NCBI RefSeq assembly: GCF_000241345.1
Contig: NZ_BAED01000020.1
Coordinates: 62,001-126,000 of the forward strand
DNA length: 64,000 nucleotides
Reading direction: 5' to 3'
Source of the DNA: Gordonia amarae NBRC 15530
Lineage (GTDB): Bacteria; Actinomycetota; Actinomycetes; Mycobacteriales; Mycobacteriaceae
This document shows positions 31,542 through 51,344 of the stretch, in pieces; positions within the stretch are counted from its first letter, which is position 1, and each line of letters begins with the position of its first letter. The position numbers and the translations under genes were made by a program. Under the pieces are notes generated by a model that was not told where the DNA came from, did not search any database, and saw only the letters and a list, made by a program, of their open reading frames with translations.

Positions 31542-31574
31542 TCAGCTACCTATCGTGTCGTCTGATTCAGGCAT

Positions 31575-32813: not shown

Positions 32814-32856
32814 GGTGGTCCTGTCGGGGAAAGCGGAGGTGGCTGCTGGCGCGGTG

Positions 32857-33171
32857 CTACGAGACCGCGGGCGGTGGAGGGGCTCCGGGGGTGACGATCT
32901 CGGCCTTGGCCATCAGGGTGGATTCCCAGATCCCTTCTCGAACATAGGGATCCTGCTCATAGAAGGCCTGGGCCGCAGCGGCCGAATCGGTGTCGAGAAG
33001 GAAGTGTCCGCCGATGAGGGTGGTGCCGTCGGTATCGAACAGCCGACTCAGCGAGGTGACCAGCCCGGATTCGACGTTGCGCTGGACGTGTGCGATGTGG
33101 GCGTCACGGAACTCGGTGCGGGCGTCGCCGGAGGCATCGGCGCGCAGTGTGTTGACGAGGAGGAAGGTCAT
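32857..33171 (-). CDS. YciI-like protein
   Basis: 104 residues, one alpha+beta (dimeric ferredoxin-like) domain with the YciI-type middle and end: GGHFLLDTDSAAAAQAFYEQ and DPYVREGIWESTLM. Relatives are found beside aromatic degradation genes and resemble muconolactone isomerase in fold, so an isomerase or dehalogenase-like step is conceivable, but no catalytic assignment is possible. The Ala/Pro-rich tail (TPGAPPPPAVS) is disordered. Its ATG overlaps the VOC gene stop by 4 bp. Confidence 0.8.
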   Translation of the reverse strand: MTFLLVNTLRADASGDARTEFRDAHIAHVQRNVESGLVTSLSRLFDTDGTTLIGGHFLLDTDSAAAAQAFYEQDPYVREGIWESTLMAKAEIVTPGAPPPPAVS

Positions 33172-33833: not shown

Positions 33834-34012
33834 CGGATCATCTCCAGATCGCAGGGTGCTGTGAGGAATCGGGGTGAGGTGAGTGCGCGGTGGTGGGGGC
33901 GCCGGGCGGCGCATCCTGTCATTTCCGGCGGGCGGGTGGGGTCTGGTGTGACCCACCACACCATCATGCTTCCGGTGTGAGGCCGAGTCGATATCGGGAA
34001 TGTATGCCCGGT

Positions 34013-34028
34013 GATGCGTGGCGTGCAT
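34013..34028. promoter_or_regulatory. LysR-type T-N11-A box, site C
   Basis: GATGC-gtggcg-TGCAT, matching the GATGC-N6-TGCAT motif found at 39507 and 43712. It lies in the 328-bp spacer 33834-34161, upstream of the VOC operon. The rest of that spacer holds only the lysR terminator hairpin (34073-34107) and no gene that I can support. Confidence 0.6.
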
Positions 34029-34072
34029 GATCTTCCCGGCGCGCGGGCATCCGCGCGAGCCGCACGGAAAGA

Positions 34073-34107
34073 GCCGGCCGGTACGTGTGGCACACGTACC
34101 GGCCGGC
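34073..34107 (-). terminator. hairpin terminator of the lysR gene
   Basis: A perfect 16-bp inverted repeat (GCCGGCCGGTACGTGT at 34073-34088 and its complement at 34092-34107) with a 3-base loop. On the minus strand it follows the lysR stop codon by 54 bp and is succeeded by CTCTTTCC. The U-run is short, as is common in actinobacteria. Confidence 0.75.
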
Positions 34108-34161
34108 GATGAAAAACATTACGGTGCAGGAGAATCCCGCGCCCAAACGACGGACCGGACT

Positions 34162-35094
34162 TCAGACGGCCTTGCTCAGGGTGCGTGGGGTGGCAGTGCC
34201 GGGGTCCCGTCCGGCCCCGAAATCCGATGTCTCGGCGACAAATCGGAGAACCTGGCGGGCGGCATTGCCGTGCGGTCCCGAACGACGCACCACGGCGCCG
34301 TAGGGGCGGAACGCGCCCGGATCACTGATCACGATGCGTCTGGTGGGGATCAGATGCTCGTCGGGGGCGACGGGAACGATGGCGATACCCGCGCTGTGCC
34401 TGACCAGCGCGCGCAGCGTCGATAGTTCGGTTGCCTCCATGGTGATCTGGGGTTTGAGGCCGGCCGCCTCGAACAGCCGGTCCACCGTCTGCCGCAGGCC
34501 GTACTCGGTGCCGAGGGCCACCATCGGGCGTTCGGCGATCTCGGCGATCGACACCTCGGTGCGGTCGGCCCACTCGTCGGTCTCGGGCACCTCCAGGCAG
34601 AGCCGTTCCTTGCCGAGCGGAACCCACACCAGATCGTCGGTGGTGGGTTCGGGGGCGACGAAGCCGATGTCGATACGTCCGGAGCGGACGGCCTCCACGA
34701 TGGTGTTGGCGGGTCCGCCCTCGAGCTCGAACGTGGTGTTGGGTGCCTTCGCGCGGTAGCGGTCCATGAGGGTGGGGATCAGCCAGCCGCCGAACGAATG
34801 CAGGAAGCCGAGGGAGACCACCCCGCTCTCCGGGTCGACAAGGGTGCGGATCTCCTCCTCGCAGTCCTCGAGTTCCTTGATCGCCTTGATGACGTGGGAC
34901 TGGAAGATCTCGCCGTACTTGTTGAGCCGGAGGCGGTTCTGGTTGCGGTCGAAGAGCTTGACGCCGAGCTTGCGCTCGACCCGGCCGAGGGCTCGCGACA
35001 GGGTGGGCTGGCTGATGTGCAGTTCCGTCGCGGTGTTGGTCATGCTCTGACTCTTCGCGAGGGCTAGGAACCACTGAAGTTCACGTACCTCCAT
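34162..35094 (-). CDS. LysR-family transcriptional regulator
   Basis: 310 residues. The N-terminal winged helix-turn-helix (MEVRELQWFLALAKSQSMTN, LHISQPTLSRALGRVERKLG) is followed by KLFDRNQNRLRLNKYGEIF. The inducer domain starts SGVVSLGFLHSFGGW and includes IDIGFVAPEP. It sits between the VOC operon and the dioxygenase operon. T-N11-A boxes of one sequence type lie upstream of the main catabolic operons, so it is the best candidate for the island's activator (inference). A 15-bp palindrome (35121-35135) lies just upstream of its ATG and may serve autoregulation. Confidence 0.93.
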   Translation of the reverse strand: MEVRELQWFLALAKSQSMTNTATELHISQPTLSRALGRVERKLGVKLFDRNQNRLRLNKYGEIFQSHVIKAIKELEDCEEEIRTLVDPESGVVSLGFLHSFGGWLIPTLMDRYRAKAPNTTFELEGGPANTIVEAVRSGRIDIGFVAPEPTTDDLVWVPLGKERLCLEVPETDEWADRTEVSIAEIAERPMVALGTEYGLRQTVDRLFEAAGLKPQITMEATELSTLRALVRHSAGIAIVPVAPDEHLIPTRRIVISDPGAFRPYGAVVRRSGPHGNAARQVLRFVAETSDFGAGRDPGTATPRTLSKAV

Positions 35095-35120
35095 GCCTGT
35101 CCACGATAGAGGCCGTAGTG

Positions 35121-35135
35121 ACCCGTGTCACGGGT
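35121..35135. promoter_or_regulatory. palindrome upstream of lysR
   Basis: ACCCGTGTCACGGGT, a perfect 7-bp inverted repeat around one base, centred about 34 bp upstream of the lysR start. It differs from the GATGC-N6-TGCAT boxes. An autoregulatory operator is possible but unsupported by a second copy. Confidence 0.4.
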
Positions 35136-35148
35136 CTGAGGCAAGAAA

Positions 35149-35164
35149 TCTCTGTTTTCAGAGA
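35149..35164 (-). terminator. weak hairpin after the dioxygenase operon
   Basis: TCTCTG and CAGAGA arms with a 4-base loop. In minus-strand sense the hairpin comes about 35 bp after the extradiol dioxygenase stop and is followed by TTTCTT. The stem is short, so this is tentative. Confidence 0.4.
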
Positions 35165-35198
35165 AAAATTGTCAGACCCGTGACCGGTACGGCGATCG

Positions 35199-36407
35199 TC
35201 AGCCGATCGGCCCCCAGAACGTCTCGCCGGCGTAGGTGTCGGACATCGGTTCGAGGGCCTCCGGCCAGGTGCCGGTCTGCACCTTCCGGCGCTGGTCGGC
35301 GGGGCGCACCCGGCCGTCCCAGCCCACCTGCTCCATCGAGTAGTACAGCGCCATGACATGCCCGGCCGGGTCGACGGCGTGCACCACATAGTCGATGCCG
35401 GGATGCAGTTCCTGCGGCAGGTCGATGAGCTTGACCCCGTGCGACTCCAGGAACGCCCGCGAATCGCGCAACTGGGCGTACGAGCCGAGCTGAATACCGA
35501 AGCTGCACAGGGTGCTCTCGTCAGACAGGCCGAGTGTCTCGCGGGCCTCGAGCGGCAGCAGCGCCAGGCTGTGATGCTCGGTGTTCACCCGCAGAAAAAG
35601 CGCGCGGTGGCCTGCGACGACGGTCTCCTCGGACTTGGTCATGCCGAGGGTCTGGGTGTAGAAGCGTTCGGCGGCGTCGAGGTCGTCCACGAACAGGCTC
35701 ACCGGCCCGAGTCGTACCGGGACGAAGGGGCGGCCCAGCAGCACCCCGCCGACGTCGTACTTCTTCTCTGACTTGTCGAGCCAGCGGAACCCGGAGGCGA
35801 GATCGATGCCGTCGGCGATCGCCGCGGCCAGCTCGGTACCCTCCGAACCGGCGGGCAATTCGGGATGCTCTTGCACCCACGGCCACATCGCCTGTGGCTT
35901 GCTGCGCCCGTCCCAGCCCACCTGCTCGATGCCGTACTCCAACTCGTTGGTGTGCCCGGTCGGATCGGGGAAATAGGTGTGCCAGTTGGACCCGGGGTCG
36001 CGGCCGTACCGGTCGATCTTGCGTCCCTGCTCCTGCAGCCACAACCGGGCCTGCACGACCTCCCGGAGCGTGGACACCTGCCAGGTGACCTGGTTGACGG
36101 TGATGTCGGGCCGGGCCGGGGGTTCCATGTGCTCGATCCACGGACGCGGCATCAGCACGAACGTGTGATGGTCGGAATTGTGCCGCAGGAAGTACACATT
36201 GGTGTCGGGCAGGCCCTCGTGCCAAGGGCCGGGATCGGTGACGGCGGTGTCGATCACGTCGGCGAGTTTGAAACCGAGCAGATCCCGGTAGAACGTCAGG
36301 GCAGCACCGGTGTCGTGCACCGAGATACCGAAGTGGTTGAGCCGGCGGATCTTGAAGGGCCGCTCGTACAGGATGCCGCCGACGTCGTGCAGCGTCTGCG
36401 CGGTCAT
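35199..36407 (-). CDS. extradiol dioxygenase-like two-domain VOC protein
   Basis: 402 residues, two VOC domains joined by a linker near 190-215. Both end in the same EQVGWDGR segment, showing internal duplication. The N-terminal domain keeps a 2-His-1-carboxylate set: RRLNHFGISV, SDHHTFVLMP and TNELEYGIEQ. The C-terminal domain has RLGPVSLFV, TEHHSLALLP and HVMALYYSMEQ, so the first His and the Glu are replaced. Two-domain extradiol dioxygenases normally bind iron in the C-terminal domain, so the arrangement here looks swapped. Likely meta-cleavage of a catecholic intermediate. Its ATG shares one base with the stop of the FAH-type gene, so the two are tightly coupled. Confidence 0.82.
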   Translation of the reverse strand: MTAQTLHDVGGILYERPFKIRRLNHFGISVHDTGAALTFYRDLLGFKLADVIDTAVTDPGPWHEGLPDTNVYFLRHNSDHHTFVLMPRPWIEHMEPPARPDITVNQVTWQVSTLREVVQARLWLQEQGRKIDRYGRDPGSNWHTYFPDPTGHTNELEYGIEQVGWDGRSKPQAMWPWVQEHPELPAGSEGTELAAAIADGIDLASGFRWLDKSEKKYDVGGVLLGRPFVPVRLGPVSLFVDDLDAAERFYTQTLGMTKSEETVVAGHRALFLRVNTEHHSLALLPLEARETLGLSDESTLCSFGIQLGSYAQLRDSRAFLESHGVKLIDLPQELHPGIDYVVHAVDPAGHVMALYYSMEQVGWDGRVRPADQRRKVQTGTWPEALEPMSDTYAGETFWGPIG

Positions 36408-37417
36408 CAGTCGGCCTTCACGATCTCGTTGGTCAGGGTGCCCAGCAGAGGGGAGAACACCTCGACGACGTCACCCGGCTTCAGGAAGGCCGAATCATCG
36501 AGGAAGGTCCCGTCGGGTTCGCGCTTGGACGAGTCGACGGCGGTGCCTTTCGGGGTACCCGAGAGGATCATGTCGCCCGGGTACAGAGTCAGATCCCGGG
36601 ACAGGTGGGCACCGAACGCGCCCCAATCGTGCACCATCTGGTCGGTGTTGCCGTCCTGGCGGACCTCGCCGTTGACCTTGAGGCCCACCGGGATATCGAG
36701 GGGGTCGATGGATTCGTCGACGACGATCCACGGGCCCAGGCCGGTGCCGGTGTCGAAGTTCTTGGAGTACTGGAAGTCCGGGCCGAAGGAGACGTTGCTG
36801 CGGATCGACCAGTCGTTGGCCAGGGTGTAGCCGTAGATGACCGGGGTGAAGTCCCCGGCGGCGACGTCGCGGACCTGCTTGCCGATCACCACGGCCACCT
36901 CGGCCTCGTAATCCATCAGGGTGGTGCGGGCCGGGTAGCGGACCGGATCACCGTCGGTGGACGCGGCGCGAGCATCCTTCATGAAGTACTTCGGGCCGCC
37001 GGCCTGCAGTTTGTTGATGGTCTCCACGGTGGCGGCGTCGGTGGTGTTCTTGGCCGCGGCCTGCATGTGCGCCGAGAAGTTCGCCAGCGCCGCGAAGATC
37101 CGTGACGGACCCTCGATCGGTGGATGCAGCCGGGTCTGGCCGAGAGCGAAGACGATCTGCCGGCCGTGCACGCCGGTAGTGCTGCCGGTGGACTCACCGG
37201 TGACGTGCTCGACGGCGGTGCGGGACGCGGCCAGGGCTGCGGCGCCCTCCTCGATGAAGCTGTTGAGGCCGGCCGGGACGAAGGCGTCGGCGTGCTCCTG
37301 CGCACGGACGGCGCCGGTGTCGGCGAGGTACTTGGCGTAGGCGCCGTTGGCGTCGATCACCGAGTCGTTCTCGATGATGCCGACACGGCGGTCAGGTCCG
37401 AATACTGCGATCTTCAT
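36407..37417 (-). CDS. fumarylacetoacetate hydrolase-family enzyme
   Basis: 336 residues. An N-terminal cap region, then the FAH catalytic domain with GQTRLHPPIEGPSRIFA, metal-binding MDYEAEVAVVIG and YGYTLANDWSIR, GTGLGPWIV and the C-terminal LYPGDMILSGTPKGTA and LKPGDVVEV. The family hydrolyses C-C bonds of 1,3-diketones such as fumarylpyruvate or acylpyruvates, or hydrates and decarboxylates related ring-cleavage acids. Placed directly upstream of the dioxygenase gene, it probably processes that product. AGAGGAGA lies before ATG 37417. The exact reaction cannot be assigned. Confidence 0.9.
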   Translation of the reverse strand: MKIAVFGPDRRVGIIENDSVIDANGAYAKYLADTGAVRAQEHADAFVPAGLNSFIEEGAAALAASRTAVEHVTGESTGSTTGVHGRQIVFALGQTRLHPPIEGPSRIFAALANFSAHMQAAAKNTTDAATVETINKLQAGGPKYFMKDARAASTDGDPVRYPARTTLMDYEAEVAVVIGKQVRDVAAGDFTPVIYGYTLANDWSIRSNVSFGPDFQYSKNFDTGTGLGPWIVVDESIDPLDIPVGLKVNGEVRQDGNTDQMVHDWGAFGAHLSRDLTLYPGDMILSGTPKGTAVDSSKREPDGTFLDDSAFLKPGDVVEVFSPLLGTLTNEIVKAD

Positions 37418-37489
37418 GGATTTCTCCTCTGTGCTGGAAGGGTATCTGTGCCGATTGCTCAGATGCGCGGAAGATGTTGTGCGCGAGGG

Positions 37490-39415
37490 CTACTGATTGC
37501 CCGGATCCTTACCGACCTTGTCGAAGAGCTTGCCGTCGGTCAGGGTCAGGCTGTAGATGGCCAACCGGCTGATCTTGCCGTCGACGACGGTGAAGAAGTC
37601 GGCCAGCGTCACCGTGGAGCCGCCCGCGTCCAGGTCGATTTCGACGCTGACGTGGTTGCCGTCGACGACCATGCGGCGCGGACTCGGCCGCATCGCTCCG
37701 GGTGTGACGCCCGTGCGGTACATCCGCGCGATCGCCGCGGCGCCGTACAGGGTGCCGGCGGCGTTCTGCAGCACCGCGTCGTCGGCGAACAGGTCGGCCA
37801 GCGCCTCCGAGTTGCCGGCGGTGACGCACGCGAAGTACGCCTCGACGACGTCGGCCGCATTGCTCGGGGCGGTGTCGGCGGGGCTGGGCACCGCCGCGCT
37901 GTCCTGTTGCACCGGAGCCGATTCCGCCGCAGCGGGGGTGAGGTACTTGGCCGAGGCGTAGATCGACTTGTACTGCAGGTAAGGCTCCAGCCCCAACTCG
38001 CCGCCGAGTTCACGCCCGATACCCGATTCCTTGTAACCGCCGAACGGCGCCCCGAGGTCGAGCAGGTAGTAGTTGAGTCCCACTGTGCCGGAACGGATTT
38101 GCTGGGCCACCCGCAGGGCGTGGTCCTCGTCGGAGCTGTAGACGACCGCGGCGAGACCGAAGTTCGTCTCGTTCGCCAGGCGGATCGCGTCGGCCTCGTC
38201 GTCGAAGGGCGTCACCGCGATAACCGGGCCGAAGACCTCTTCCCGGGCCAGCCTGTCGCCGGGGGCGACGTCGGCGAACACGGTCGGTTCCAGGAAGTAT
38301 CCGTCCGGCAGATCTTTGGGCCGGCGCCCACCGGCCACCAGACGCGCTTGGGTCTTCTTGGCCGCCTTGATGTATCCGTGCACCCGGTGGTGATGTCCGG
38401 CGCTCGCCATCGGACCCAGCGTCACCGCCGGGTCGAGCGGATCGCCGATGGTGAAGTGCGAATCGGCGTAGTCGGCGAGCGCGTCGACCACTTCGGCGTA
38501 GCGGGACCGGTCGACGAGGATGCGCGACTGCGTGGTGCAGGTCTGGCTGTTGTTGAGGAACGACGCCCCGTCGAGGGCGGCCAGGAAGGTGTCCAGGTCG
38601 GCGTCCTCGAGGAACAGGCCCGGCGACTTGCCGCCGAGTTCGAGGGTGACGGGGCGGATCAGGCGGCCGCATTCGGCGCCGATCGCGCGCCCGGCCTCCG
38701 TCGAACCGGTGAAGGCGATCTTGTCCACCAGCGGATGCGACACCAGCGCGGCGCCGGCGTCCCGATCACCCAGGACGACGTTGAATACGCCCTCGGGCAG
38801 TCCGGCCTCGGCGGCGGCATCAGCGAAAATGTATGCGTCGAGCGCGGTTTCGGGTGACGGTTTCAGGACCACGGTGTTGCCGGCGGCCAGCGCGGGCGCG
38901 AATTTGAAGGCGGCGAGTGCCTGCGGGAAGTTCCACGGCACGATGGCGCCGACCACACCGAGCGGTTCGCGGCGCACCAGGGTCGACCCGGCGCCGCTGG
39001 GCTGGGCCACCTCTAGGTCGAGGCCGGCCACCATATCGGCGTACATCCGGACCAGGAAGGCGGGCACCCCGCCGTTGACCTGCTCGGAGAAGCCGATCGG
39101 CATGCCGTTCTCGCGGCTGACGAGGGTGGAGGTGCCCGCGGCGCGGCGTTCGAGGCTGTCGGCGAAGCGGTGCAGGACCGCTGCCCGTTCGGCCGGGGTG
39201 GTGCGGCCCCAGGGGCCGTTGTCGAAGGCCCACCGGGCGGCCCGGACGGCGGCGTCGATGTCGGCCTCACCGCCCAGCGAGGCGGTGCCGATCACCTTGC
39301 CGGTAGCGGCCTCGGTCTGCTTGTGAACCCGGTCGCTCACCGAATCCACCCACCGGCCACCGATGTAGAAGCGCCTGCGGTCCAGGCCGCCGGGTTGCCG
39401 GGTGGTGAGAGGCAT
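37490..39415 (-). CDS. aldehyde dehydrogenase fused to a SnoaL/NTF2-like domain
   Basis: 641 residues, about 150 longer than a normal ALDH. Residues 1-490 form a full NAD(P)-dependent ALDH: VVGAIVPWNFPQALAAFKFA, FTGSTEAGR, the general base in LELGGKSPGLF and the nucleophile Cys in NNSQTCTTQSR. EVFGPVIAV and GGYKESGIGRE are also present. After an Ala/Pro linker (about 495-520) comes a SnoaL/NTF2-like domain: VVEAYFACVTAGNSEALADL and TVVDGKISRLAIYSLTL. The frame is continuous, so this is a genuine fusion. ATG at 39415 has AGGAG 7 bases upstream. An 11-bp inverted repeat and a T-N11-A box lie just upstream. First structural gene of the operon with the FAH-type and dioxygenase genes. Confidence 0.92.
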   Translation of the reverse strand: MPLTTRQPGGLDRRRFYIGGRWVDSVSDRVHKQTEAATGKVIGTASLGGEADIDAAVRAARWAFDNGPWGRTTPAERAAVLHRFADSLERRAAGTSTLVSRENGMPIGFSEQVNGGVPAFLVRMYADMVAGLDLEVAQPSGAGSTLVRREPLGVVGAIVPWNFPQALAAFKFAPALAAGNTVVLKPSPETALDAYIFADAAAEAGLPEGVFNVVLGDRDAGAALVSHPLVDKIAFTGSTEAGRAIGAECGRLIRPVTLELGGKSPGLFLEDADLDTFLAALDGASFLNNSQTCTTQSRILVDRSRYAEVVDALADYADSHFTIGDPLDPAVTLGPMASAGHHHRVHGYIKAAKKTQARLVAGGRRPKDLPDGYFLEPTVFADVAPGDRLAREEVFGPVIAVTPFDDEADAIRLANETNFGLAAVVYSSDEDHALRVAQQIRSGTVGLNYYLLDLGAPFGGYKESGIGRELGGELGLEPYLQYKSIYASAKYLTPAAAESAPVQQDSAAVPSPADTAPSNAADVVEAYFACVTAGNSEALADLFADDAVLQNAAGTLYGAAAIARMYRTGVTPGAMRPSPRRMVVDGNHVSVEIDLDAGGSTVTLADFFTVVDGKISRLAIYSLTLTDGKLFDKVGKDPGNQ

Positions 39416-39430
39416 GGTGTAGCTCCTGCG

Positions 39431-39458
39431 GTAGAAGGTGATTCGGGTCACCTTCTAC
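39431..39458. promoter_or_regulatory. inverted repeat in the ALDH 5' region
   Basis: GTAGAAGGTGA and its exact complement TCACCTTCTAC are separated by 6 bp (TTCGGG). The repeat is 16 bp upstream of the ALDH ATG and downstream of the LysR-type box, overlapping its Shine-Dalgarno side. It could be an operator for the adjacent MarR protein or a hairpin in the leader RNA. Confidence 0.6.
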
Positions 39459-39502
39459 ATTCGGCGTGTACAGCCCTCCCGACAATGCGCAGAAGTTCGC
39501 CG

Positions 39503-39527
39503 GGTCGATGCACCGTTTGCATCGACC
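39503..39527. promoter_or_regulatory. LysR-type T-N11-A box, site A
   Basis: A perfect 10-bp inverted repeat: GGTCGATGCA, 5-bp spacer, TGCATCGACC. The core GATGC-N6-TGCAT recurs at 43712 and 34013 and, with one change, at 47338. It is about 90 bp upstream of the ALDH-SnoaL start. The most symmetric of the set. Confidence 0.7.
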
Positions 39528-39553
39528 GGCATGGTTGGACCCGTCCTGCCGGG

Positions 39554-40123
39554 TCAGTCCGTCAGCCCGGCGTCGAGCCGGCCCAGGACAAGCAGGACCG
39601 CGTCGAGGTCGGCATCGGGTCCGATGAGGGGTCCCAGGGTTTCCGCCCAGATACTGCGGACCTCGGCGACCTCGGCGTGAGCCGCCTCGGTGAGCCGGAA
39701 ATGGGAACGGCGGCGGTCGGTTTCACCGACATCCTTGGTGATCAGGCCTTTGGCCTCCAGCGACCGCAACGCTGTGCTCGTGTTTCCGCTGCGCAGATCC
39801 AGATCGGCGCTGATCTTGCCGGGAACGATGCCGGGATTGACGTCGATATGCCGCAGTATCAGGCTCTCCACATTGCTCAGGTACATCGCCCGATCACCGA
39901 GGTTGATCCGCTGGATCTTGCGGGCCAGGAAGAAGATCGACTGGATGATCGAGGCGATCGCCTGTTCGCGGTCCAGGGGCGGCTCCGCGCCGGGTGCATT
40001 CTCGTCGGCGCGGTCCACCTCGTCCTGTTGTGCGGTATCCCGATGCGATTGAGTGCAGCCCGGGCCGTCCGGGCTGTATTCCTCGTCCGGTGGGCTCCCC
40101 GCCACGTCACCGTCGTTGGCCAT
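39554..40123 (-). CDS. MarR-family transcriptional regulator
   Basis: 189 residues. The first 50 are hydrophilic and low in structure; the winged helix-turn-helix spans about 75-150: SNVESLILRHIDVNPGIVPG, SGNTSTALRSLEAKGLITKD and DRRRSHFRLTEAAHAEVAEV (the wing with DRR). Ligand unknown. Cotranscription with or control of the downstream ALDH operon is likely. GACTG-N7-CAGTC (40127-40143), immediately upstream of the ATG, could be its own operator. Start ATG 40123; a shorter start is possible because the N-terminal 45 residues are not conserved-looking. Confidence 0.87.
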   Translation of the reverse strand: MANDGDVAGSPPDEEYSPDGPGCTQSHRDTAQQDEVDRADENAPGAEPPLDREQAIASIIQSIFFLARKIQRINLGDRAMYLSNVESLILRHIDVNPGIVPGKISADLDLRSGNTSTALRSLEAKGLITKDVGETDRRRSHFRLTEAAHAEVAEVRSIWAETLGPLIGPDADLDAVLLVLGRLDAGLTD

Positions 40124-40145
40124 GTCGACTGACGCTAGCAGTCAA

Positions 40146-40176
40146 GGCCCCCGGGTTCTGGATGAACCCGGGGGCC
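40146..40176 (-). terminator. strong hairpin terminator after the monooxygenase operon
   Basis: A perfect 13-bp GC-rich stem (GGCCCCCGGGTTC and its complement) with a 5-base loop, 20 bp past the stop of the ABM-fold gene in minus-strand sense. No U-run, as usual in high-GC actinobacteria. It separates the monooxygenase operon from marR. Confidence 0.8.
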
Positions 40177-40195
40177 CTGACTGGGGTGTTGCCGC

Positions 40196-40519
40196 CTAGC
40201 CGTTGACGCCGGCGGTGGCCACGTGGATGACGTGCGGAGGTCCGGCGCAATAGGACTTCAGCACCTCGAACACCTGCTGCCCGGCCTCGGAGGCGGGGAA
40301 GTGTTCGGTGTGGTCCTCCAGCCGTGCCCAGTCGACACGCAGCACGTACGTGTCGGGAACGTCGACGCTGCGCAGCAGTTCGGCGCCCAGACAACCCGAT
40401 GCGGAGCGCAGTGCCGGCAGCACCTTGCCGAAGGCCGCCTCGAACTCGCCCGCCGAGCCGGGGACGATGGTGAGCTGAGCCAGCTCCTGAACGGCGCTCA
40501 CAGCGAGGTCGGGGCTCAC
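40196..40519 (-). CDS. ABM-fold (antibiotic biosynthesis monooxygenase-like) protein
   Basis: 107 residues, one dimeric alpha+beta barrel: ELAQLTIVPGSAGEFEAAFG, SASGCLGAELLRSVD, TYVLRVDWARLEDHTEHF. ABM proteins include cofactor-free quinol monooxygenases, so oxidation of a hydroquinone or trihydroxy intermediate is plausible. GTG at 40519 overlaps the stop of the monooxygenase gene (GTGA). An 18-bp tandem duplication repeats this junction, so a second GTG at 40501 is also well placed and would give 101 residues. Last gene of the operon, ahead of the strong terminator. Confidence 0.8.
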   Translation of the reverse strand: MSPDLAVSAVQELAQLTIVPGSAGEFEAAFGKVLPALRSASGCLGAELLRSVDVPDTYVLRVDWARLEDHTEHFPASEAGQQVFEVLKSYCAGPPHVIHVATAGVNG

Positions 40520-40531
40520 AGCGAGGTCAGG
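40496..40531. repeat. 18-bp tandem duplication at a stop/start junction
   Basis: GCTCACAGCGAGGTCGGG (40496-40513) is followed directly by GCTCACAGCGAGGTCAGG (40514-40531), 17 of 18 identical. Each unit carries a GTGA on the minus strand; the first met by the ribosome ends the monooxygenase gene and starts the ABM gene. Confidence 0.85.
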
Positions 40532-41724
40532 GCCGGCTCGGGATCGCCGAGCAGCACCGCGCCGTAGGCCTCGCGGCCGAGGGCGGAGGTGACCAGGGCG
40601 TGCCGGGCGGCGGTCTCCGAGTCGCGCCAGATCCGGCTGAGCACGTTGGCCTCGGCGAACGAACCCGAACCGGCAGCCGTGAGCAGCAGGTTGATCGCGT
40701 CCTTGCACAGTTCGGCGATGACGCCGGTGTTGTTGCGGATGCGTGCTTTGTCCTCCAGGTCGAACGGCACGCCTGCCTCGACGACGCGGTCGACGTCGTC
40801 GGCGGACTGGGCGAGCAGCAGGCCGGCGAGGTTGATTTTGGTGGCGGCGTCGGCGACGGCGAGCTGGTGCGTCGGCGACAGGCGGCCCTGCGTGTACTTG
40901 GTGTACAGGATCGGCTTGCCCACGATCGACTGCCGGACGATCTCGAGGGCGTGCCGGGCCAGACCCAGTTGCGGGGCGGCCAGGATCAGCGCGGCCACCG
41001 AACCGAACGGCACGCGGGCGATCCGGTCCTCCTTGTGCGAGGTGGCGAAGTCGCCCGCGAACATCCCGGTCAGGCGCTGGATGCGGTGGTCGGGGACGAA
41101 GGCGTTGTCGACGACGATGGTGTCGCTGCCGGTGCCCTTCATACCGGTCACGTACCACGAGTCCTCGATGGTGAAGTCCGAGGCGGGGATGTGGGCGAGG
41201 GCGACGGGGTTCTCGGTGGGGTCGTCGACCTCGACGAGCATGCCGAGGGAGGCCCAGGTGGCGGCGAAGGAACCCGACGAGTACGGCCAGCGGCCGCTGA
41301 TCACGTAGCCGCCGTCGACGCGCTTGACGTCGGGGGTGGGCTGGAAGGTGCCGGACAGCTTGGCGCGCGGGTCGGCGCCCCAGATCTCCTCCTGTGCCTG
41401 ATCGTTCCAGGTGGCGCCGAAGGCGGTGCCCGAGGACAACAGCGTCAGCACCCAGGCGGTGGCACCGTCGCCACGGGCGACCTCGGCGATGGTCTCCAGC
41501 GCGGTGTGCATCGACACGTCCAGGCCGCCGAGCCGCGCGGGCAGGAAGATCCGGAGGAGTTCGGACTCATCGAGGGCGGCGACAACTTCGGGGGAGATCT
41601 TCCGGTTCTCGGCGCCTTCGGTGGCGTGTTCGCGGATCAGCGGGACCAGTGCGGTTGCGCGGGCGACGATCTCGGGATCCAGTCCGGGCAGGGTGGTTGC
41701 GGGCGGGGTCAGCGTGGTGGTCAT
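40516..41724 (-). CDS. HsaA-type flavin-dependent monooxygenase (copy B)
   Basis: 402 residues, acyl-CoA-dehydrogenase fold, reductase-dependent group D hydroxylase. Marks: PARLGGLDVSMHTALETIAE, the helix GDGATAWVLTLLSSGTAFGA, GRWPYSSGSFAATWASLG, GMKGTGSDTIVVDNAFVPDHR and the C-terminal VLSRIWRDSETAARHALVT. The GTGSDT and WRDSETAARHA motifs are shared with copy C at 42360, which looks like a tandem paralogue. Expected to hydroxylate a phenolic ring using reduced flavin from the reductase encoded just upstream (41795-42310). The start is ATG at 41724. Confidence 0.88.
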   Translation of the reverse strand: MTTTLTPPATTLPGLDPEIVARATALVPLIREHATEGAENRKISPEVVAALDESELLRIFLPARLGGLDVSMHTALETIAEVARGDGATAWVLTLLSSGTAFGATWNDQAQEEIWGADPRAKLSGTFQPTPDVKRVDGGYVISGRWPYSSGSFAATWASLGMLVEVDDPTENPVALAHIPASDFTIEDSWYVTGMKGTGSDTIVVDNAFVPDHRIQRLTGMFAGDFATSHKEDRIARVPFGSVAALILAAPQLGLARHALEIVRQSIVGKPILYTKYTQGRLSPTHQLAVADAATKINLAGLLLAQSADDVDRVVEAGVPFDLEDKARIRNNTGVIAELCKDAINLLLTAAGSGSFAEANVLSRIWRDSETAARHALVTSALGREAYGAVLLGDPEPALTSL

Positions 41725-41794
41725 TGTCGACTTCCTTTGCGTGGGTTGGATTCTGGATAGGTTCAGGGGGAATGTCTGTGTGCCGGATGGTCGG

Positions 41795-42310
41795 TCAGGG
41801 GACGGTGGGCGGGGTCAGGTCGAGGAATCCGCCCTGCACGAACACTAGTGGCGGGTCGGCCGCCCGCACTTCCAGCGATTCGACCCGGCCGACGACCTGG
41901 TAGTGATCTCCGATCACGTCGACCTTCACGCGGGTGCATTCGAGGGCGACGATCGCCTCGTCGAGCAGGGGGATGCCGTGCGGCGATGGCTGCCAGTCGA
42001 CTCCCTCGAACCGGTCGGCGACGGGGCGGGAGAAGGTGCGGCACAGTTCGCTGTGCCGGTGCCCGAGCACGTTGACCCCGAAGCGGTCGGATTCGTACAT
42101 GAGCGGCCAGGTGGAAGAGCCCTTGTCGATGAAGAAGGCGATGAGCGGCGGCGTGAGCGAGACCGAGGTGAACGACCCGATCGTCATCCCGATCGGGCCG
42201 CCGCGGCCCGTCGCGGTGATGATCGACACGCTGGTGGGAACGTGGCCGAGCGCCTTGCGATAGTGCGCCGGGTCGGACACCGCGGGGGTCTGGGGGGCTG
42301 GGCTGCTCAT
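41795..42310 (-). CDS. flavin reductase (HpaC/HsaB-like)
   Basis: 171 residues, split-barrel flavin reductase: YRKALGHVPTSVSIITATG, IGMTIGSFTSVSLTPPLIAF, FGVNVLGHRHSELCRTFS, the GDHYQVVGRVE strand and VFVQGGFLDL. Supplies FADH2 or FMNH2 to the partner monooxygenases, using NAD(P)H. It lies between two HsaA-type genes (40516 and 42360) in one operon and is the only flavin reductase in the window, so it probably serves all three monooxygenases. ATG at 42310 with GAAGGAGA about 10 bases upstream. Confidence 0.93.
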   Translation of the reverse strand: MSSPAPQTPAVSDPAHYRKALGHVPTSVSIITATGRGGPIGMTIGSFTSVSLTPPLIAFFIDKGSSTWPLMYESDRFGVNVLGHRHSELCRTFSRPVADRFEGVDWQPSPHGIPLLDEAIVALECTRVKVDVIGDHYQVVGRVESLEVRAADPPLVFVQGGFLDLTPPTVP

Positions 42311-42359
42311 GGGCTGCTCGTCTCCTTCGCAGGACGGGGCTTTCAGAAAGACGGGGCTT

Positions 42360-43565
42360 TCAGAGGACGATGGTGGGTTGGAGGTTGCCGAGCAGGACGC
42401 GCCCGTAGGTTTCGCGGCCGATGTCGGGCGTGACCAGCGCGTGGCGGGCACCGGTCTCCGAATCACGCCAGATCTGGTTCAGCACATTGGCGTCGGCGAA
42501 CGATCCGGCGCCGTTGGCGGTCAGCAGTTGTGCGATCGCGTCATTGACGAGTTCGACAGCGGTGCCGCAGTCGTTGCGGATGCGGGCCTTCGTCTCCAGG
42601 TCCAGGCGCTCCCCGGTCACCGACGCCGAGTCGATCTCGTCGCAGATCTGCCCGACGAGCAGCTCGGCGATGTGCAGGTTCGTGGCCGCCTTCGCCACGC
42701 TCACCTGGTGCGTGGGCGATTGCCTGGCCTCACCGTAGATGCTGTACGCGACGGGTTTCGACGGCAGGTGCGCGCGGGTGAGTTCCAGGGCGTGCCTGCC
42801 GAGTCCGAGCTGCGGGGCCACCAGGATCACCGAGGCGGCCGCGTTGAACGGGATGTTGGCGATCGCGTCGTCGGTGTACGGCGTGGCGAACTCGGCCTCG
42901 AACATGTCGGAGACCCGCTGCAGCCGGTACTCGGGCAGGAAGTGGTCTTTCACCACGATCGTGTCGCTGCCGGTGCCCTCCATCCCGGCGACGAACCAGG
43001 TGGGCGCGATGGTGAAGGCCTCGCGCGGGATCTGGCCCATGGCCAGTGCCCCGTCCTCCAGCTCGATGGTGATCGACGCCCAGTCGGCCGCGAAAGAACC
43101 TGAGGCGTAGGGCCATTGGCCGCTGACCCGGTATCCGCCGGGAACTTTTGCCGGCTTGTCGCCGGGGGAGAACACGCCGCAGATCTTCGGCCGGGCGCCG
43201 ACACCGAAGATGTCGTCCTGACAGGGGGCCGACCAGGTGGCCGAGAACGCGGTGCCCATCATCATGAGGGCGGCAACCCAGCCGGTGGAGCCGTCGCCGC
43301 GGGCGATCTCGCTGGTCGCATCGACAGCGGTGCGCAGACAGACGCCGGCGCCGCCGAGGCGGGTGGGCACCATCGCGTGGAACATCCCGATCTCATCGAT
43401 GGCGGCGATGACCTCGGGGGCGACGCGACGCGCCTCGGTGCCCTGCGCGGCGTACTCCCGGATCAGCGGGATCAGTTCGGTGGCGCGGGCGGTGAGGTCC
43501 GTGCCGGCCGGATCCGTGTCGGCGGCCGCGACAGGCCTCTCGGTGCGGGTGGTGGTGACGGTCAT
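42360..43565 (-). CDS. HsaA-type flavin-dependent monooxygenase (copy C)
   Basis: 401 residues, same fold and motifs as copy B: PTRLGGAGVCLRTAVDATSE, GDGSTGWVAALMMMGTAFSA, GQWPYASGSFAADWASI, GMEGTGSDTIVVKDHFLPEYR and VLNQIWRDSETGARHALVT. First gene of the operon with the reductase, copy B and the ABM protein. AGGGGCAGCA precedes ATG 43565. Divergent from the P450 gene; the 333 bp between them (43566-43898) hold a T-N11-A LysR-type box and no gene that I can support. Substrate specificity relative to copy B is unknown; a heteromeric enzyme is possible. Confidence 0.88.
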   Translation of the reverse strand: MTVTTTRTERPVAAADTDPAGTDLTARATELIPLIREYAAQGTEARRVAPEVIAAIDEIGMFHAMVPTRLGGAGVCLRTAVDATSEIARGDGSTGWVAALMMMGTAFSATWSAPCQDDIFGVGARPKICGVFSPGDKPAKVPGGYRVSGQWPYASGSFAADWASITIELEDGALAMGQIPREAFTIAPTWFVAGMEGTGSDTIVVKDHFLPEYRLQRVSDMFEAEFATPYTDDAIANIPFNAAASVILVAPQLGLGRHALELTRAHLPSKPVAYSIYGEARQSPTHQVSVAKAATNLHIAELLVGQICDEIDSASVTGERLDLETKARIRNDCGTAVELVNDAIAQLLTANGAGSFADANVLNQIWRDSETGARHALVTPDIGRETYGRVLLGNLQPTIVL

Positions 43566-43707
43566 TGCTGCCCCTGGGGTTTTCGGCGTGGGTGGGAGAG
43601 CCGGTGCGGTCGGGAGTTCCTGGTCGGATCGGGTGACCGCTGTCACATCGGCGATGGATTCAGCATGGGCGCGCGGCTCGGTCCCGGCAATGCCGCGAAA
43701 GTGACCG

Positions 43708-43732
43708 GGTCGATGCGTTTTCTGCATCGAAT
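43708..43732. promoter_or_regulatory. LysR-type T-N11-A box, site B (divergent promoter)
   Basis: GGTCGATGC, 6 bp, TGCATCGAAT. Its fixed bases match site A at 39503 at every position of GGTCGATGC-N6-TGCATCGA. It sits near the middle of the 43566-43898 spacer, about 145 bp from the monooxygenase start and 167 bp from the P450 start, where it could control both directions. A T6 run follows at 43735. Confidence 0.7.
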
Positions 43733-43898
43733 GCTTTTTTCCGCGGCGGGAAACGCGGGGTGCACGGGGTATTCACCTCGCGCATGGAGCAATGAACAAA
43801 ACGATGTTTGTCGTCGCGACGTGACCCGGCTCACGATGGACGGGAACCACGGGCCGGACATCCCACGCCCGATCGCAACGACGAAGGAGCTCCCCGTG

Positions 43899-45074
43899 AT
43901 GAGCGCCCCCACCATCTTCGATCCGTTCGCCCCGGACACCGATCAGCATTCCGGCGGCGCCTTCCACGGACAATCCATTGTCTCCGGCGACTACGGCTAC
44001 GCTGTCACCGATTACGAGACCGCTGGAAAGGTACTGCGCGACAAACGGTTCCGAAACTCCGCCCTGAGGCTGATGGAGGAGATCGGCATCACCGACGGCC
44101 CGGTCCACGACTTCCGTGAGCGCAGCATCATCATGATCGAGGGCAAGCCGCATCTGCACCTGCGCTCCCCGCTGGCTCGCTGGATGGGGCCGGCGCGGGT
44201 GAAGAAGATCCAGGATGTGCTGCGGGGCATCATCGACGAGATCGCCGACGAACTCGACGACACCGCGCCGATCGACGTCCACGACACCGTCGCCCGGCGC
44301 ATCCCGTCGATGGTCTACTGCTATCTGGCCGGTGCGCCGATGTCGGACGCGCCCAAGGTGCAGTCGATCTCCGAGCGCACGCTGTCGCTGCTCACCCGCG
44401 ACCGCACCGTCGCCGACACCGTCCGGGGCGCCTACGTCGAGCAGTGGGAGTATCTCGACGACCTGATCGCCCGCAAACGGGCCGCGGGTCTCGGCGAGGA
44501 CATGCTGTCGTACCTGATCCAGCAGGGCGACGAGGGCAAGCTCACCGAGGAGGAGGTGGTCACTGAGGCGACCTCGATGCTGGAGGCCAGCTCGGTCAAT
44601 ACCGCCCACCAGGCGTCGCTGGTGGTCTGGGCGCTGTTGCGGGAACCGGAGGCGTGGCAGCGCATCGTCGCCGACCCCGGGCTGATCCCGGACGCCGTCA
44701 CCGAGGTACTGCGCCTGTACCCGCGGACCGGCATGATCAGCAAGATCGCCACCGAGGACATCGAGGTGGGTGAGGTGACGATCCCGGCCGGCAGTGATGT
44801 CCACATCGCGGTGTGGTCGGCCAATCGCGACCCCGAACGTTTCGAGAACCCGGATGTCTTCGATCTCGACCGGGAACGCAATGTGCCGCTGACGTTCAGT
44901 TCCGGCCCGCACAACTGCCTCGGGCAGGCCCTCGCGACGGCCGAGATCGCGGAGGTCGTCGGGATGCTGGCCCGCCGCTACCCGGAGGCGACGATCGTGG
45001 AGTCCGAGACGAGTGTCGGGCAGGCCGGGGGCCGCTGGCTGATCGACAAGCTCACGCTCAACCTGCGGGGCTGA
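43899..45074 (+). CDS. cytochrome P450 with atypical I-helix
   Basis: 391 residues, soluble bacterial class I P450. The haem loop is FSSGPHNCLGQALA (Cys near 340), the ExxR motif is EVLRLYP, and PERFENPDVFDLDR is present. The I-helix, normally AGxET or AGxDT, here reads ASSVNTAH, so the acid becomes Val and the conserved Thr becomes Asn. ATG at 43899 overlaps a GTG at 43896; AAGGAG lies 9 and 6 bases upstream respectively. First gene of a nine-gene plus-strand operon. No ferredoxin partner is encoded nearby; only the 3' end of a ferredoxin reductase appears at the far right edge. Confidence 0.93.
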   Translation: MSAPTIFDPFAPDTDQHSGGAFHGQSIVSGDYGYAVTDYETAGKVLRDKRFRNSALRLMEEIGITDGPVHDFRERSIIMIEGKPHLHLRSPLARWMGPARVKKIQDVLRGIIDEIADELDDTAPIDVHDTVARRIPSMVYCYLAGAPMSDAPKVQSISERTLSLLTRDRTVADTVRGAYVEQWEYLDDLIARKRAAGLGEDMLSYLIQQGDEGKLTEEEVVTEATSMLEASSVNTAHQASLVVWALLREPEAWQRIVADPGLIPDAVTEVLRLYPRTGMISKIATEDIEVGEVTIPAGSDVHIAVWSANRDPERFENPDVFDLDRERNVPLTFSSGPHNCLGQALATAEIAEVVGMLARRYPEATIVESETSVGQAGGRWLIDKLTLNLRG

Positions 45075-45080
45075 ACCAGC

Positions 45081-46469
45081 ATGTCCCAGAGTCCCGTCCG
45101 GGAGAACCCCACACTCACGCAATCCCTTGCCGCGCACTGGTCGCGGGTTACCTTCGATGATCTGCCGGCCGAGGATGTCGCCGGTATCAAGGACCACATC
45201 CTCGACACGCTCGCGGTCGCGATGTACGGCGCCGCCACGCCCGAGGCCGGCCGGGTCATCCGCGCGCTCACCGGCATTCAGGACTCCGCCAGCGGAAGTC
45301 TGGTGTGGGGAACCGGGTTCCGGCTCAACCCCGCGCAGGCGGCACTGGCGAACGGAACCTCGGCACATGCCCGCGATTTCGACGACGGCGGCGGTTCCGG
45401 GCATGCCGGTGTGACCGTCCTGCCCGCCGCGATCGCCGCCGCCGAGGTGGTGGGTGCCTCCGGGCGGGAACTGATCACCGCCACCATCGCCGGCTACGAC
45501 ATCGGCTTTCGTGCCCTCGCCGCACTCGGCGGGTTCGGTGCGCACACCGACCGCGGCTGGCACACGACCGGCACGATGGGCAGCCTGAGCGCCGCTGCTG
45601 CCGCCGCGAAATGCCTTGGCCTCGACGCTGATCGGTTCACCGACGCCCTCGGCATCGCGGGTTCCTTCACCGGTGGCATCTGGGCGTTCAAGGATGACGG
45701 GGCGATGACTAAACGCCTGCACCCCGGAAAGGCCTGCGAGACAGGCGTCGACGCCGCGGTCCTCGCCCGCGCCGGAATCACTGGCCCGAGCAGGCTTTTC
45801 GAGGCCGAGTGGGGAGGTATCATCGCCACCTACAACGGCGGGACCGGTTATCCCGAACGGGCCGTGGAGAACCTCGGCACCGACCTCAACGTCGCCAGCT
45901 CCTACCTCAAGCCGTACGCCTGTTGCCGTGGTTCGCATTCCGCGGTCGATGTGGTGATGGCGCTGCTCACGCGGCGGTCGCTCACCGCCGAGGATGTGCG
46001 GTCCGTCAGGGTCGCGCTCGGCGAGACCGCGTACAACATGCTGTCGGTCGAGCGGATCGAGACGGTGTTCGACGCCCAGTTCAGCCTCCCGTACGCGCTG
46101 GCACTGGCCCTGTGCGGCGGGCGGCTGGGTCTCGACGAGTACGAGCCGCTGCGGCTCGCTGAGCCGCGCATCCGCGGGGCCATGGCCAAGGTGTCCCTCG
46201 AGGTCGAACCCGGTATCGGTCTGCTCGACGGTCCGCGACTGGAGTTCACCCTCACCGACGGTGAGGTCATCGTCCTGGAGGCCGGCGACCCCACCGACGC
46301 CAAGGGTTCGGCGAAGAACCCGATGACGCACGCCGAGGTCGTCGCCAAGGCCACGTCCCTGCTCGGCCCACTCGGTGACGGCAGGGCGCAGCGGCTCGTC
46401 ACCGCCGTCGAGAATCTCGACAACGCAAGCGATCTCACCGAACTTCTGCACGCACTCGGCACCAACTGA
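45081..46469 (+). CDS. MmgE/PrpD-family protein
   Basis: 462 residues. The family includes 2-methylcitrate dehydratase, cis-aconitate decarboxylase and related lyases of branched tricarboxylates and dicarboxylates. Features: DHILDTLAVAMYGA, ANGTSAHARDFDDGGGSGHAG (His and Asp active-site region), FTGGIWAFKDDGAMTKRLHPGKA and KPYACCRGSHSAVDVV. Located 6 bp after the P450 and 9 bp before a CoA-ester hydratase, so it belongs to the catabolic operon and not to a methylcitrate cycle; no prpB or prpC is near. The precise substrate is unknown. Confidence 0.9.
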   Translation: MSQSPVRENPTLTQSLAAHWSRVTFDDLPAEDVAGIKDHILDTLAVAMYGAATPEAGRVIRALTGIQDSASGSLVWGTGFRLNPAQAALANGTSAHARDFDDGGGSGHAGVTVLPAAIAAAEVVGASGRELITATIAGYDIGFRALAALGGFGAHTDRGWHTTGTMGSLSAAAAAAKCLGLDADRFTDALGIAGSFTGGIWAFKDDGAMTKRLHPGKACETGVDAAVLARAGITGPSRLFEAEWGGIIATYNGGTGYPERAVENLGTDLNVASSYLKPYACCRGSHSAVDVVMALLTRRSLTAEDVRSVRVALGETAYNMLSVERIETVFDAQFSLPYALALALCGGRLGLDEYEPLRLAEPRIRGAMAKVSLEVEPGIGLLDGPRLEFTLTDGEVIVLEAGDPTDAKGSAKNPMTHAEVVAKATSLLGPLGDGRAQRLVTAVENLDNASDLTELLHALGTN

Positions 46470-46478
46470 AGGAAGCTC

Positions 46479-47318
46479 ATGACCACCACCGAAGACGCCA
46501 CCACCAGCACCACCCCGGACCAGATCGAGCGGACCGAGATCATCGCAGCTGAACCCGCCGAATCCCTCGCCGCGATGCTCGACATCGAGGTGCCGTTCGG
46601 TGCCGGTGACACCATCGCACCCCTGTGGCACTGGATGTACCTGCTCGAACGCAGCCCCGAACGCGACCTCGGTTACGACGGCCATCCCGTGGTCGGCATC
46701 CCGGCGCCGCCCGGGGAGGGCCGTCGCCGGATGTTCGCCGGTGGCCGCGTCACCACCTACGGGCTGCTCAAGATCGGCGCCCCCGCCACCAAGGTGACCT
46801 CGGTCAAGAAGTCCGTCGACAAGCAGGGGCGCACCGGTCTGCTGACCTTCACCACGGTTGCCCAGCAGATCTTCCAGGACGATGAACTCGTCATCCACGA
46901 GGAACAGGACATCGTCTACCGGGCAGGCGGTTCCAATGCCTTGCCCACACCGCCCACCCCGCCCGCACCGCCGGGCGGACCCACCCTCGACCTGGCCGTC
47001 GACGAGCGGATGCTGTTCCGGTTCTCGGCGCTCACCTACAACGCCCACCGCATCCATTACGACGTCGACTTCTGCCGCTCCGAGGGCTACGACGGTCTGG
47101 TCATCCACGGCCCGTTGCTGGCGCTGATGATGGGCGAGCACTATCGCCGCGAGGGTATCGACCTGGTGGGCAAGACCTTCGGATACCGGCTGGTGTCGCC
47201 GATGACCCGGCCGCAGACATTCACCGTCGTCCCGGGCACCGACGGCCTGGACGCCGGCGCGGAGGCCCGCAGCGCCGCCGGATCGGTCTGCGCGGTCAGT
47301 ACCTTGACCGGGATGTGA
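46479..47318 (+). CDS. MaoC/HTD2-family hydratase, itaconyl- or mesaconyl-CoA hydratase-like
   Basis: 279 residues in two hot-dog halves. The first contains LWHWMYLLERSPERDLGYDG and GRRRMFAGGRVTTYGLL, the second LFRFSALTYNAHRIHYDVDF and GYDGLVIHGPLLALMM; the Asn-His pair of the second is the usual hydratase site. The GHPVVGIPAPP and RMFAGGR segments are typical of the mesaconyl-C4-CoA/itaconyl-CoA hydratase branch. A Pro-rich linker (PTPPTPPAPPGGP) joins the halves. Together with the CaiB-type CoA transferase at 48670 it suggests CoA activation and hydration of an unsaturated dicarboxylate. No citramalyl-CoA lyase is in the window. Confidence 0.85.
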   Translation: MTTTEDATTSTTPDQIERTEIIAAEPAESLAAMLDIEVPFGAGDTIAPLWHWMYLLERSPERDLGYDGHPVVGIPAPPGEGRRRMFAGGRVTTYGLLKIGAPATKVTSVKKSVDKQGRTGLLTFTTVAQQIFQDDELVIHEEQDIVYRAGGSNALPTPPTPPAPPGGPTLDLAVDERMLFRFSALTYNAHRIHYDVDFCRSEGYDGLVIHGPLLALMMGEHYRREGIDLVGKTFGYRLVSPMTRPQTFTVVPGTDGLDAGAEARSAAGSVCAVSTLTGM

Positions 47319-47337
47319 ACGCCGCGCCCGCCGAGTC

Positions 47338-47353
47338 GATGCGCGCCGAGCAT
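47338..47353. promoter_or_regulatory. degenerate LysR-type box, site D
   Basis: GATGC-gcgccg-AGCAT in the 137-bp gap 47319-47455, one base from the GATGC-N6-TGCAT pattern and preserving T-N11-A. The preceding bases GAGTC also match the GGGTC flank of sites A and B. About 100 bp upstream of the FAD monooxygenase, so the plus-strand operon may have a second promoter here. Confidence 0.45.
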
Positions 47354-47455
47354 GACCACACCGAACGACGGTTATTGGCGCCCGGCGCGGTAGTGCGGGA
47401 TGGTGAATCCGTGGCCACGATGTGGCCTGTATTACATTGATAGGAGAGTGAACTC

Positions 47456-48664: not shown

Positions 48665-48669
48665 GTGCC

Positions 48670-51339: not shown

Positions 51340-51344
51340 CCGGC

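Follow-up and report, generated by a model that had tools for sequence, protein, structure and literature searches.

In a 64,000-nucleotide stretch of the Gordonia amarae NBRC 15530 genome (contig NZ_BAED01000020.1, positions 62,001 to 126,000 of the forward strand; called the window here, with positions counted from its first letter), an island of catabolic genes carries the dyad ATGC-N7-GCAT upstream of separate operons and encodes a LysR-type regulator at 34162-35094. Taken as a whole, the data are best explained by control of five operons by this regulator through the dyad, a reading that we hold with considerable confidence, and the predicted regulon is very likely to exist. The control scheme itself is familiar, and the island is a well-supported example of it. 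That a LysR box ties the catabolic operons together had been proposed in a preliminary description of the window, and the proposal survived a control of the spacer length, a scan with a matrix built from outside the window, and the linkage of the motif to the LysR clade in other gene orders.

In the proposed mechanism, the catabolic island would have been inserted together with its own LysR-type regulator. This LysR, we infer, would sit as a tetramer on ATGC-N7-GCAT near -65 of each operon promoter and would also contact a weaker half-site abutting the -35 hexamer just downstream. A presumed pathway intermediate would bind LysR, the tetramer would shift on the downstream element and RNA polymerase would be recruited, and the five operons, of about 20 genes, would be switched on together. 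Carbon-source control may be added at three of the predicted promoters, where a CRP/GlxR-type box lies at the promoter, within it or shortly downstream. By placing five separate operons in one group, the boxes narrow the range in which substrate and inducer must be sought, and there is now an experimentally testable regulon for actinobacterial degradation genes that probably end in hydroxyquinol cleavage.

Occurrence of the box in the window

The motif was originally written GATGC-N6-TGCAT and assigned to three operon promoters; a variant differing by one base was noted at 47338. All three copies were present (34013, 39507 and 43712 on the plus strand, with a minus-strand reading of site A at 39508), making 4 matches versus a mean of 0.10 in shuffled sequences, none of 100 of which reached 4. 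With one mismatch allowed, 10 matches were found in the window, including 47338 (shuffle mean, 3.87). GATGC-N6-TGCAT is asymmetric, and the best spelling of the motif is ATGC-N7-GCAT, in which form the variant at 47338 becomes exact. The symmetric form occurred exactly four times in the 64 kb (34014, 39508, 43713 and 47339), each time upstream of a catabolic operon, and shuffles of the window gave a mean of 0.64 and a maximum of 3, with 0 of 100 reaching 4. T-N11-A held true for all four sites, and the common flanks GGTCGATGC-N6-TGCATCGA of sites A and B were seen as claimed. The palindrome at site A has 10-bp arms over 25 bp (39503-39527). A loose scan of the window and eight loci with 6 mismatches returned noise, and the symmetric core was used instead. 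The boxes and their downstream elements are listed below (ALDH, aldehyde dehydrogenase; FAH, fumarylacetoacetate hydrolase; MO1 to MO3, monooxygenases).

34014..34028, minus strand: site C, ATGC-N7-GCAT, matrix score 17.5; promoter of the VOC-YciI-monooxygenase-SDR operon
33987..33995, minus strand: site C second element, GATATCGAC, imperfect and without TTG, offset as at the other sites
39508..39522, minus strand: site A, ATGC-N7-GCAT, matrix score 15.1; promoter of the ALDH-SnoaL/FAH/dioxygenase operon
39481..39489, minus strand: site A putative -35 and second half-site, CGCATTGTC, downstream of the box, towards ALDH
43713..43727, minus strand: site B, ATGC-N7-GCAT, matrix score 17.9; promoter of the MO3-flavin reductase-MO2 operon
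43686..43694, minus strand: site B putative -35 and second half-site, GGCATTGCC, facing MO3
43771..43785, plus strand: fifth box, imperfect, ATTC-N7-GCAT, score 10.0, rank 6 in the window; proposed for P450-MmgE/PrpD-MaoC
47339..47353, plus strand: site D, score 13.0; promoter of the FAD monooxygenase-CoA transferase-SDR-hydrolase-Fe-ADH (iron alcohol dehydrogenase)-intradiol dioxygenase operon
47372..47380, plus strand: site D putative -35 and second half-site, TTATTGGCG

Conservation of the box and a second element at fixed distance

Related clusters with the VOC dioxygenase at 70 to 73% identity were found in Rhodococcus/Rhodococcoides (L012, L013 and L016), in records named Streptomyces (L014, L015 and L022), in Prauserella (L018) and in Arthrobacter (L017); to judge by identical coordinates, some handles are pairs for a single genome (G730/G800, G569/G804, G734/G801, G304/G802 and G970/G806), and genome counts from different searches are not additive. 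The box was present in most related clusters. The earlier suggestion that the separate operons form one pathway was borne out in part, in that genes of four of the five operons (site A, site B, P450 and site D) co-cluster in most related genomes found, but VOC, YciI and MO1 of the site-C operon had no match listed in the related clusters. The comparison did not cover the ABM gene (40196 onwards).

The generalised consensus AT(A/G)C-Nk-G(C/T)AT was counted in 43 upstream regions of about 350 bp each, 8 from the window and 35 from relatives, in which site B and an intergenic region of L022 were entered twice, once for each of two genes. A spacer of k = 7 gave 24 hits in 21 regions, and each other k from 0 to 20 gave 0 to 3; for distinct sites in the relatives only, the figures were 15 for k = 7 versus 0 to 2 at other spacings.

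A scoring matrix was then available from 22 distinct sites of the relatives. Overlaps having been removed by hand count, the relatives held 37 distinct AT(A/G)C-N7-G(C/T)AT places, of which 23 near cluster or lysR genes (22 distinct) were used; the remaining 14, of which 12 lie in called open reading frames (ORFs) and 2 were called intergenic (L134 4469 and L139 9231), were excluded manually. Since the list was hand-chosen with the generalised consensus, the matrix is independent of the letters of the window and not of the geometry of the box. The window scan envisaged in the preliminary description, when performed with this matrix, placed the four claimed sites at the top four positions (B, 17.9; C, 17.5; A, 15.1; D, 13.0), and the next scores in the window were 10.3 and 10.0, with a best score of 7.5 on the reversed window. 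Among 40 other genome pieces that hold a match to the core, the best scores were 14.2, 13.6 and 13.6, so site D alone is not outstanding genome-wide. Two core matches elsewhere in the genome that are not clearly coding, G000:C6:21185 (L095 1501) and G000:C44:140374 (L149 975), scored 14.2 and 13.6, respectively, and may be further targets or chance occurrences. The same matrix can be used to find other targets of this LysR clade in actinobacteria.

A second element at a fixed distance from the box, TTG, often with a half-site, is a new observation here. When boxes were aligned towards their genes, 20 of the 36 promoter rows had TTG at 21 to 22 bases past the box, whereas every other offset had at most 3 of 36; a half-site-like [GTA][CT]AT lay just before the TTG in 13 of the 36. 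These rows comprised 28 exact boxes, 15 of which had TTG at offset 21 or 22, and 8 one-mismatch or weaker sites chosen by inspection; site B read towards P450 and two reciprocal L022 rows, none with TTG at that offset, were dropped from the count. At site D, both the offset and TATTGGC are the same as in the FAD-monooxygenase promoters of L013 and L016. If the TTG represents the -35 hexamer, the centre of the box would lie at -64/-65, like the recognition site near -65 in the generic scheme for LysR proteins, which also has an activation site at -35/-10 (PMC8407307); unlike in that scheme, the start sites here are predictions, placed by hand calculation from the TTG near 39450, 43655, 43843 and 47410.

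Site B had been described as serving both operons that flank it. In the aligned promoter rows, no TTG element was found at site B towards P450, and the site is better assigned to the minus-strand monooxygenase operon alone, with the separate imperfect site at 43771 left to P450. Downstream of the 43771 box, ATGTTTGTC (43804-43812) resembles ATATTTGTC/ATATTTGCC, which the P450 promoters of L135, L138 and L015 carry at the equivalent offset. With a box and an element of its own for P450, five promoters, not four, seem to take part in the LysR-box scheme.

The regulator and competing explanations

34162-35094, minus strand: LysR-type regulator, proposed binder of all boxes (Pfam HTH_1 and LysR_substrate)

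The LysR gene named in the preliminary description is real, as its product matched Pfam LysR_substrate (4e-43, 147.7 bits) and HTH_1 (7.4e-19, 67.9 bits), both above the cut-off. An N-terminal helix-turn-helix (HTH), a C-terminal substrate domain and a T-N11-A dyad at the predicted target promoters all point to the LysR family. Orthologs of 56 to 68% identity were encoded in 7 of the 8 related-cluster genomes, the exception being Arthrobacter. Elsewhere the gene is sporadic: at E <= 1e-75, matches came from 6 of 401 family genomes, counting the window's own, and at E <= 1e-60 the window's own genome alone gave one among 101 relatives. The next seven LysR proteins of the same genome are 24 to 29% identical and lie on other contigs; judged by sequence identity, 34162-35094 is the only close member of its clade there.

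Motif and regulator were also linked in other gene orders. The box lay between lysR and a divergent CoA-transferase or MmgE gene in 3 of 4 cases (L143 4856, L144 and L145; LysR identity of 46 to 51%), and no exact box was found between the second lysR of L143 and its divergent neighbour. Upstream of lysR homologs of at least 48% identity (14 regions), k = 7 gave 6 hits in 5 regions versus 0 to 1 at other spacings, and upstream of homologs of at most 39% (12 regions) it gave 4 hits versus 0 to 1. Taken together, these counts assign the motif to a broader LysR clade. All 11 clade members compared had QPTLSR in their recognition-helix stretch.

The closest solved proteins to the regulator are CatM and BenM, whose site in benzoate/muconate catabolism of Acinetobacter baylyi is ATAC-N7-GTAT within T-N11-A (PMC6628147). 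Both systems have a LysR-family protein, an N7 dyad with T-N11-A, genes of aromatic catabolism as (here presumed) targets, and a consensus site followed by imperfect downstream sites (PMC6628147). Unlike the CatM/BenM site, the window has the same geometry with the half-site ATGC, not ATAC; both forms occur in relatives, and exact ATAC-N7-GTAT was found in 3 of their upstream regions. Further differences are that the regulator here is not divergent from its target, that several operons are concerned and that overall similarity is low: the cut-offs of the CatM and BenM families were not reached (87.3 bits versus 580 and 80 versus 600, respectively). Ten proteins were scanned against NCBIfam; all matches shown were below the curated cut-offs, and no names were taken from NCBIfam.

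Several observations weigh against control of these operons by 34162-35094 through the box. No exact box was found in 22 of the 43 orthologous or cluster upstream regions, and the sites of the relatives are not statistically independent of one another. In Prauserella L018 (LysR identity of 65 to 66%), the four upstream regions tested held no exact box, with a one-mismatch site at MO3. Site C has no TTG, as is true of 13 of the 28 exact-box rows. In 10 upstream regions of lysR homologs of 41 to 43% identity, k = 6 gave 4 hits and k = 7 gave 1. A box upstream of lysR itself was found in 1 of 9 lysR genes of 56 to 68% identity, and the upstream region of the window's lysR has none; the gene lies on the same strand as its presumed target, downstream of the dioxygenase gene, and not divergent from it. 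Divergence from the target and autoregulation are common among LysR genes, not obligatory. In addition, the core recurs elsewhere in the genome, which has 44 copies in 5.3 Mb, about twice the 21 copies of the reversed-pattern control. A longest-ORF test put 43 of the 44 sites in ORFs, the four window sites included, and did not discriminate, so a two-sided coding test was used instead. By this test, 29 of the 40 copies outside the window, and 0 of the 4 inside it, were in clear coding DNA on both sides, leaving 11 outside copies that are not clearly coding. When the arms were lengthened to GGTCG, the two best of the 44 copies were site A, matching at 10 of 10 positions, and site B, matching at 8; sites D and C matched at 5 and 3.

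Finally, the FAD-monooxygenase box in L012, L013, L016 and L014 adjoins a different LysR gene (23 to 27% identical), which may own the box there. We therefore considered that another LysR encoded elsewhere, for example a homolog of this second type, might bind some or all of the window's sites. The form ATGC-N7-GTAT adjoins the second LysR gene in those four clusters, and boxes are similar across the LysR family. Nevertheless, the second type has no equivalent among the window genes scanned, the island genes scanned included no LysR other than 34162-35094 (the search of the same genome used that protein as query and not the second type), and the next LysR homologs are the distant ones on other contigs. 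The recognition-helix stretch also differs (QPPLSSAMTK versus QPTLSRALGR). Binding by another LysR is thus unlikely. In the same four clusters, the different LysR gene and the FAD-monooxygenase gene point away from each other, and the box stands at the start codon of that LysR gene (L012 3516, L013 3498, L016 3584 and L014 3497).

Equally improbable, in our judgment, is binding of the palindrome and repression of the operons by the MarR-family protein encoded at 39554-40123. The 25-bp palindrome of site A is directly downstream of the marR gene, and MarR proteins bind palindromes of about that size. Yet upstream of marR there is no box, and a search of 12 genome handles, of which G304 and G802 are apparently one genome, found no close ortholog; 4 handles gave partial matches of 25 to 37% identity (best E, 2.4e-7), although the box is present in most related clusters. 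The half-site spacing is, moreover, that of the CatM/BenM site (PMC6628147). With no close ortholog in the related genomes searched, MarR is disfavoured as the binder, and the LysR at 34162-35094, which has orthologs in most of the related-cluster genomes, would be the better candidate, as the preliminary description had it. That a short palindrome merely recurs by chance in intergenic DNA, as the twofold excess over the reversed control might suggest, is scarcely credible and already disfavoured by the spacer specificity, the ranking with the outside matrix and the fixed-distance second element.

The island, its second operator and its presumed pathway

The island (28408-54641) is flanked by a luciferase-like gene and a GlfT1-like gene, with 26 kb between them in the window. 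The same two genes were 0.13 to 0.26 kb apart in L205, L208 and L209 and 2.4 to 5.0 kb apart in five other congeneric genomes, and no island gene was matched in the 20 kb compared at these 8 loci; a GlfT1-like match was present in 20 genomes, from which these 8 were taken. Given distances of 0.13 to 5.0 kb in 8 of 8 congeneric genomes versus 26 kb here, the island of about twenty genes seems to be an insertion, with regulator and operators, in a conserved cell-wall biosynthesis locus. The cell-wall arabinan genes Emb and AftA are among the neighbours on one side. By Pfam, 54641-55549 encodes a glycosyl transferase 2 protein and 55546-56391 an ABC transporter, which we take to be GlfT1 and Wzt, respectively.

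A second candidate operator, GTGA-N6-TCAC, occurred four times in the window, in each case in an island promoter (positions relative to predicted starts are hand calculations).

35118..35131: upstream of lysR
39438..39451: at the predicted ALDH start, about -1 to +13
43633..43646: downstream of the predicted MO3 start, about +10 to +23
43821..43834: between the predicted P450 -35 and -10, about -22 to -9

Shuffles gave a mean of 1.36, and 7 of 100 reached four; the count alone is weak, and the positions, which would suit repression, carry the argument. Genome-wide enrichment (106 copies versus 23 for the reversed control), together with the positions in island promoters, is consistent with a CRP/GlxR-type site, and proteins with a Crp-type HTH are encoded in the same genome, the best of them in a 238-aa frame at G000:C59:13543. 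The motif was also present in 3 of 3 Rhodococcus MO3 promoters tested; in the upstream regions of the relatives, spacers of 6 and 8 were equally frequent, with 3 hits each. The four GTGA-N6-TCAC cores are like GlxR sites of Corynebacterium, whose consensus is TGTGA-N6-TCACA (PMC7999487); unlike them, they fall short of the full consensus, which was absent from all regions tested, the four window boxes included. A literature search for GlxR with TGTGA at catabolic genes in Rhodococcus found nothing.

The catabolic genes of the island are as follows.

30759..33833, minus strand: VOC, YciI, monooxygenase MO1 and SDR (site-C operon), from Pfam
35199..36407, minus strand: two-domain VOC protein, extradiol-dioxygenase-like (Pfam Glyoxalase, two stretches)
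36407..37417, minus strand: fumarylacetoacetate-hydrolase family protein (Pfam)
37490..39415, minus strand: ALDH fused to SnoaL (Pfam; ATG at 39415, ORF scanned as 37490-39451)
40516..41724, minus strand: MO2, monooxygenase of the family of MO3 (Pfam)
41795..42310, minus strand: flavin reductase (Pfam; scanned as 41795-42466)
42360..43565, minus strand: MO3, acyl-CoA-dehydrogenase-fold flavin monooxygenase, XiaF- and 3-HSA-hydroxylase-like (Pfam, PDB)
43899..45074, plus strand: cytochrome P450 (Pfam)
45081..46469, plus strand: MmgE/PrpD family protein (Pfam)
46479..47318, plus strand: FAS1-dehydratase-region-like (MaoC-like) protein (borderline Pfam, 22.2 bits, cut-off 22)
47456..48664, plus strand: FAD monooxygenase, HspB/PnpA-like (Pfam, PDB)
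48658..49830, plus strand: class III CoA transferase (Pfam)
51300..52406, plus strand: Fe-ADH family, maleylacetate-reductase-like (best two PDB matches alcohol dehydrogenase, next two maleylacetate reductase)
52382..53347, plus strand: hydroxyquinol 1,2-dioxygenase-like intradiol dioxygenase (PDB 1tmx, E 5.8e-129)

The site-D operon also holds an SDR and a hydrolase, and lysR comes after the VOC protein in the order of the site-A genes; PDB matches of that VOC protein (35199..36407) were weak (best E, 3.3e-6). By their PDB matches, the two genes that end the site-D operon point to a lower pathway from hydroxyquinol to maleylacetate, and the island probably degrades an aromatic compound. A literature search at the level of titles and the beginnings of abstracts found no published description of the gene set. 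The isoflavone catabolism (ifc) cluster of Variovorax, a plant-compound catabolic cluster of oxidoreductases, hydrolases and regulators (PMC11069340), was considered as a model for the substrate by its description, without sequence comparison; LysR, hydroxyquinol and Rhodococcus are absent from the main text of that paper (PMC11069340).

More tentatively, we suggest that this may be a self-contained, transferable island for an undescribed aromatic, perhaps plant, compound, in which a LysR box at -65 would be combined with a CRP/GlxR-type box at or near the start site in 3 of 5 promoters. On this view, genes and wiring would travel together among this genus, Rhodococcus and Streptomyces, and the site-C operon, recruited locally, would have acquired the box. 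As a separate observation, ALDH and SnoaL form one ORF here, and their tblastn matches were in different frames in L012, L013, L014, L016 and L017, and the fusion looks local.

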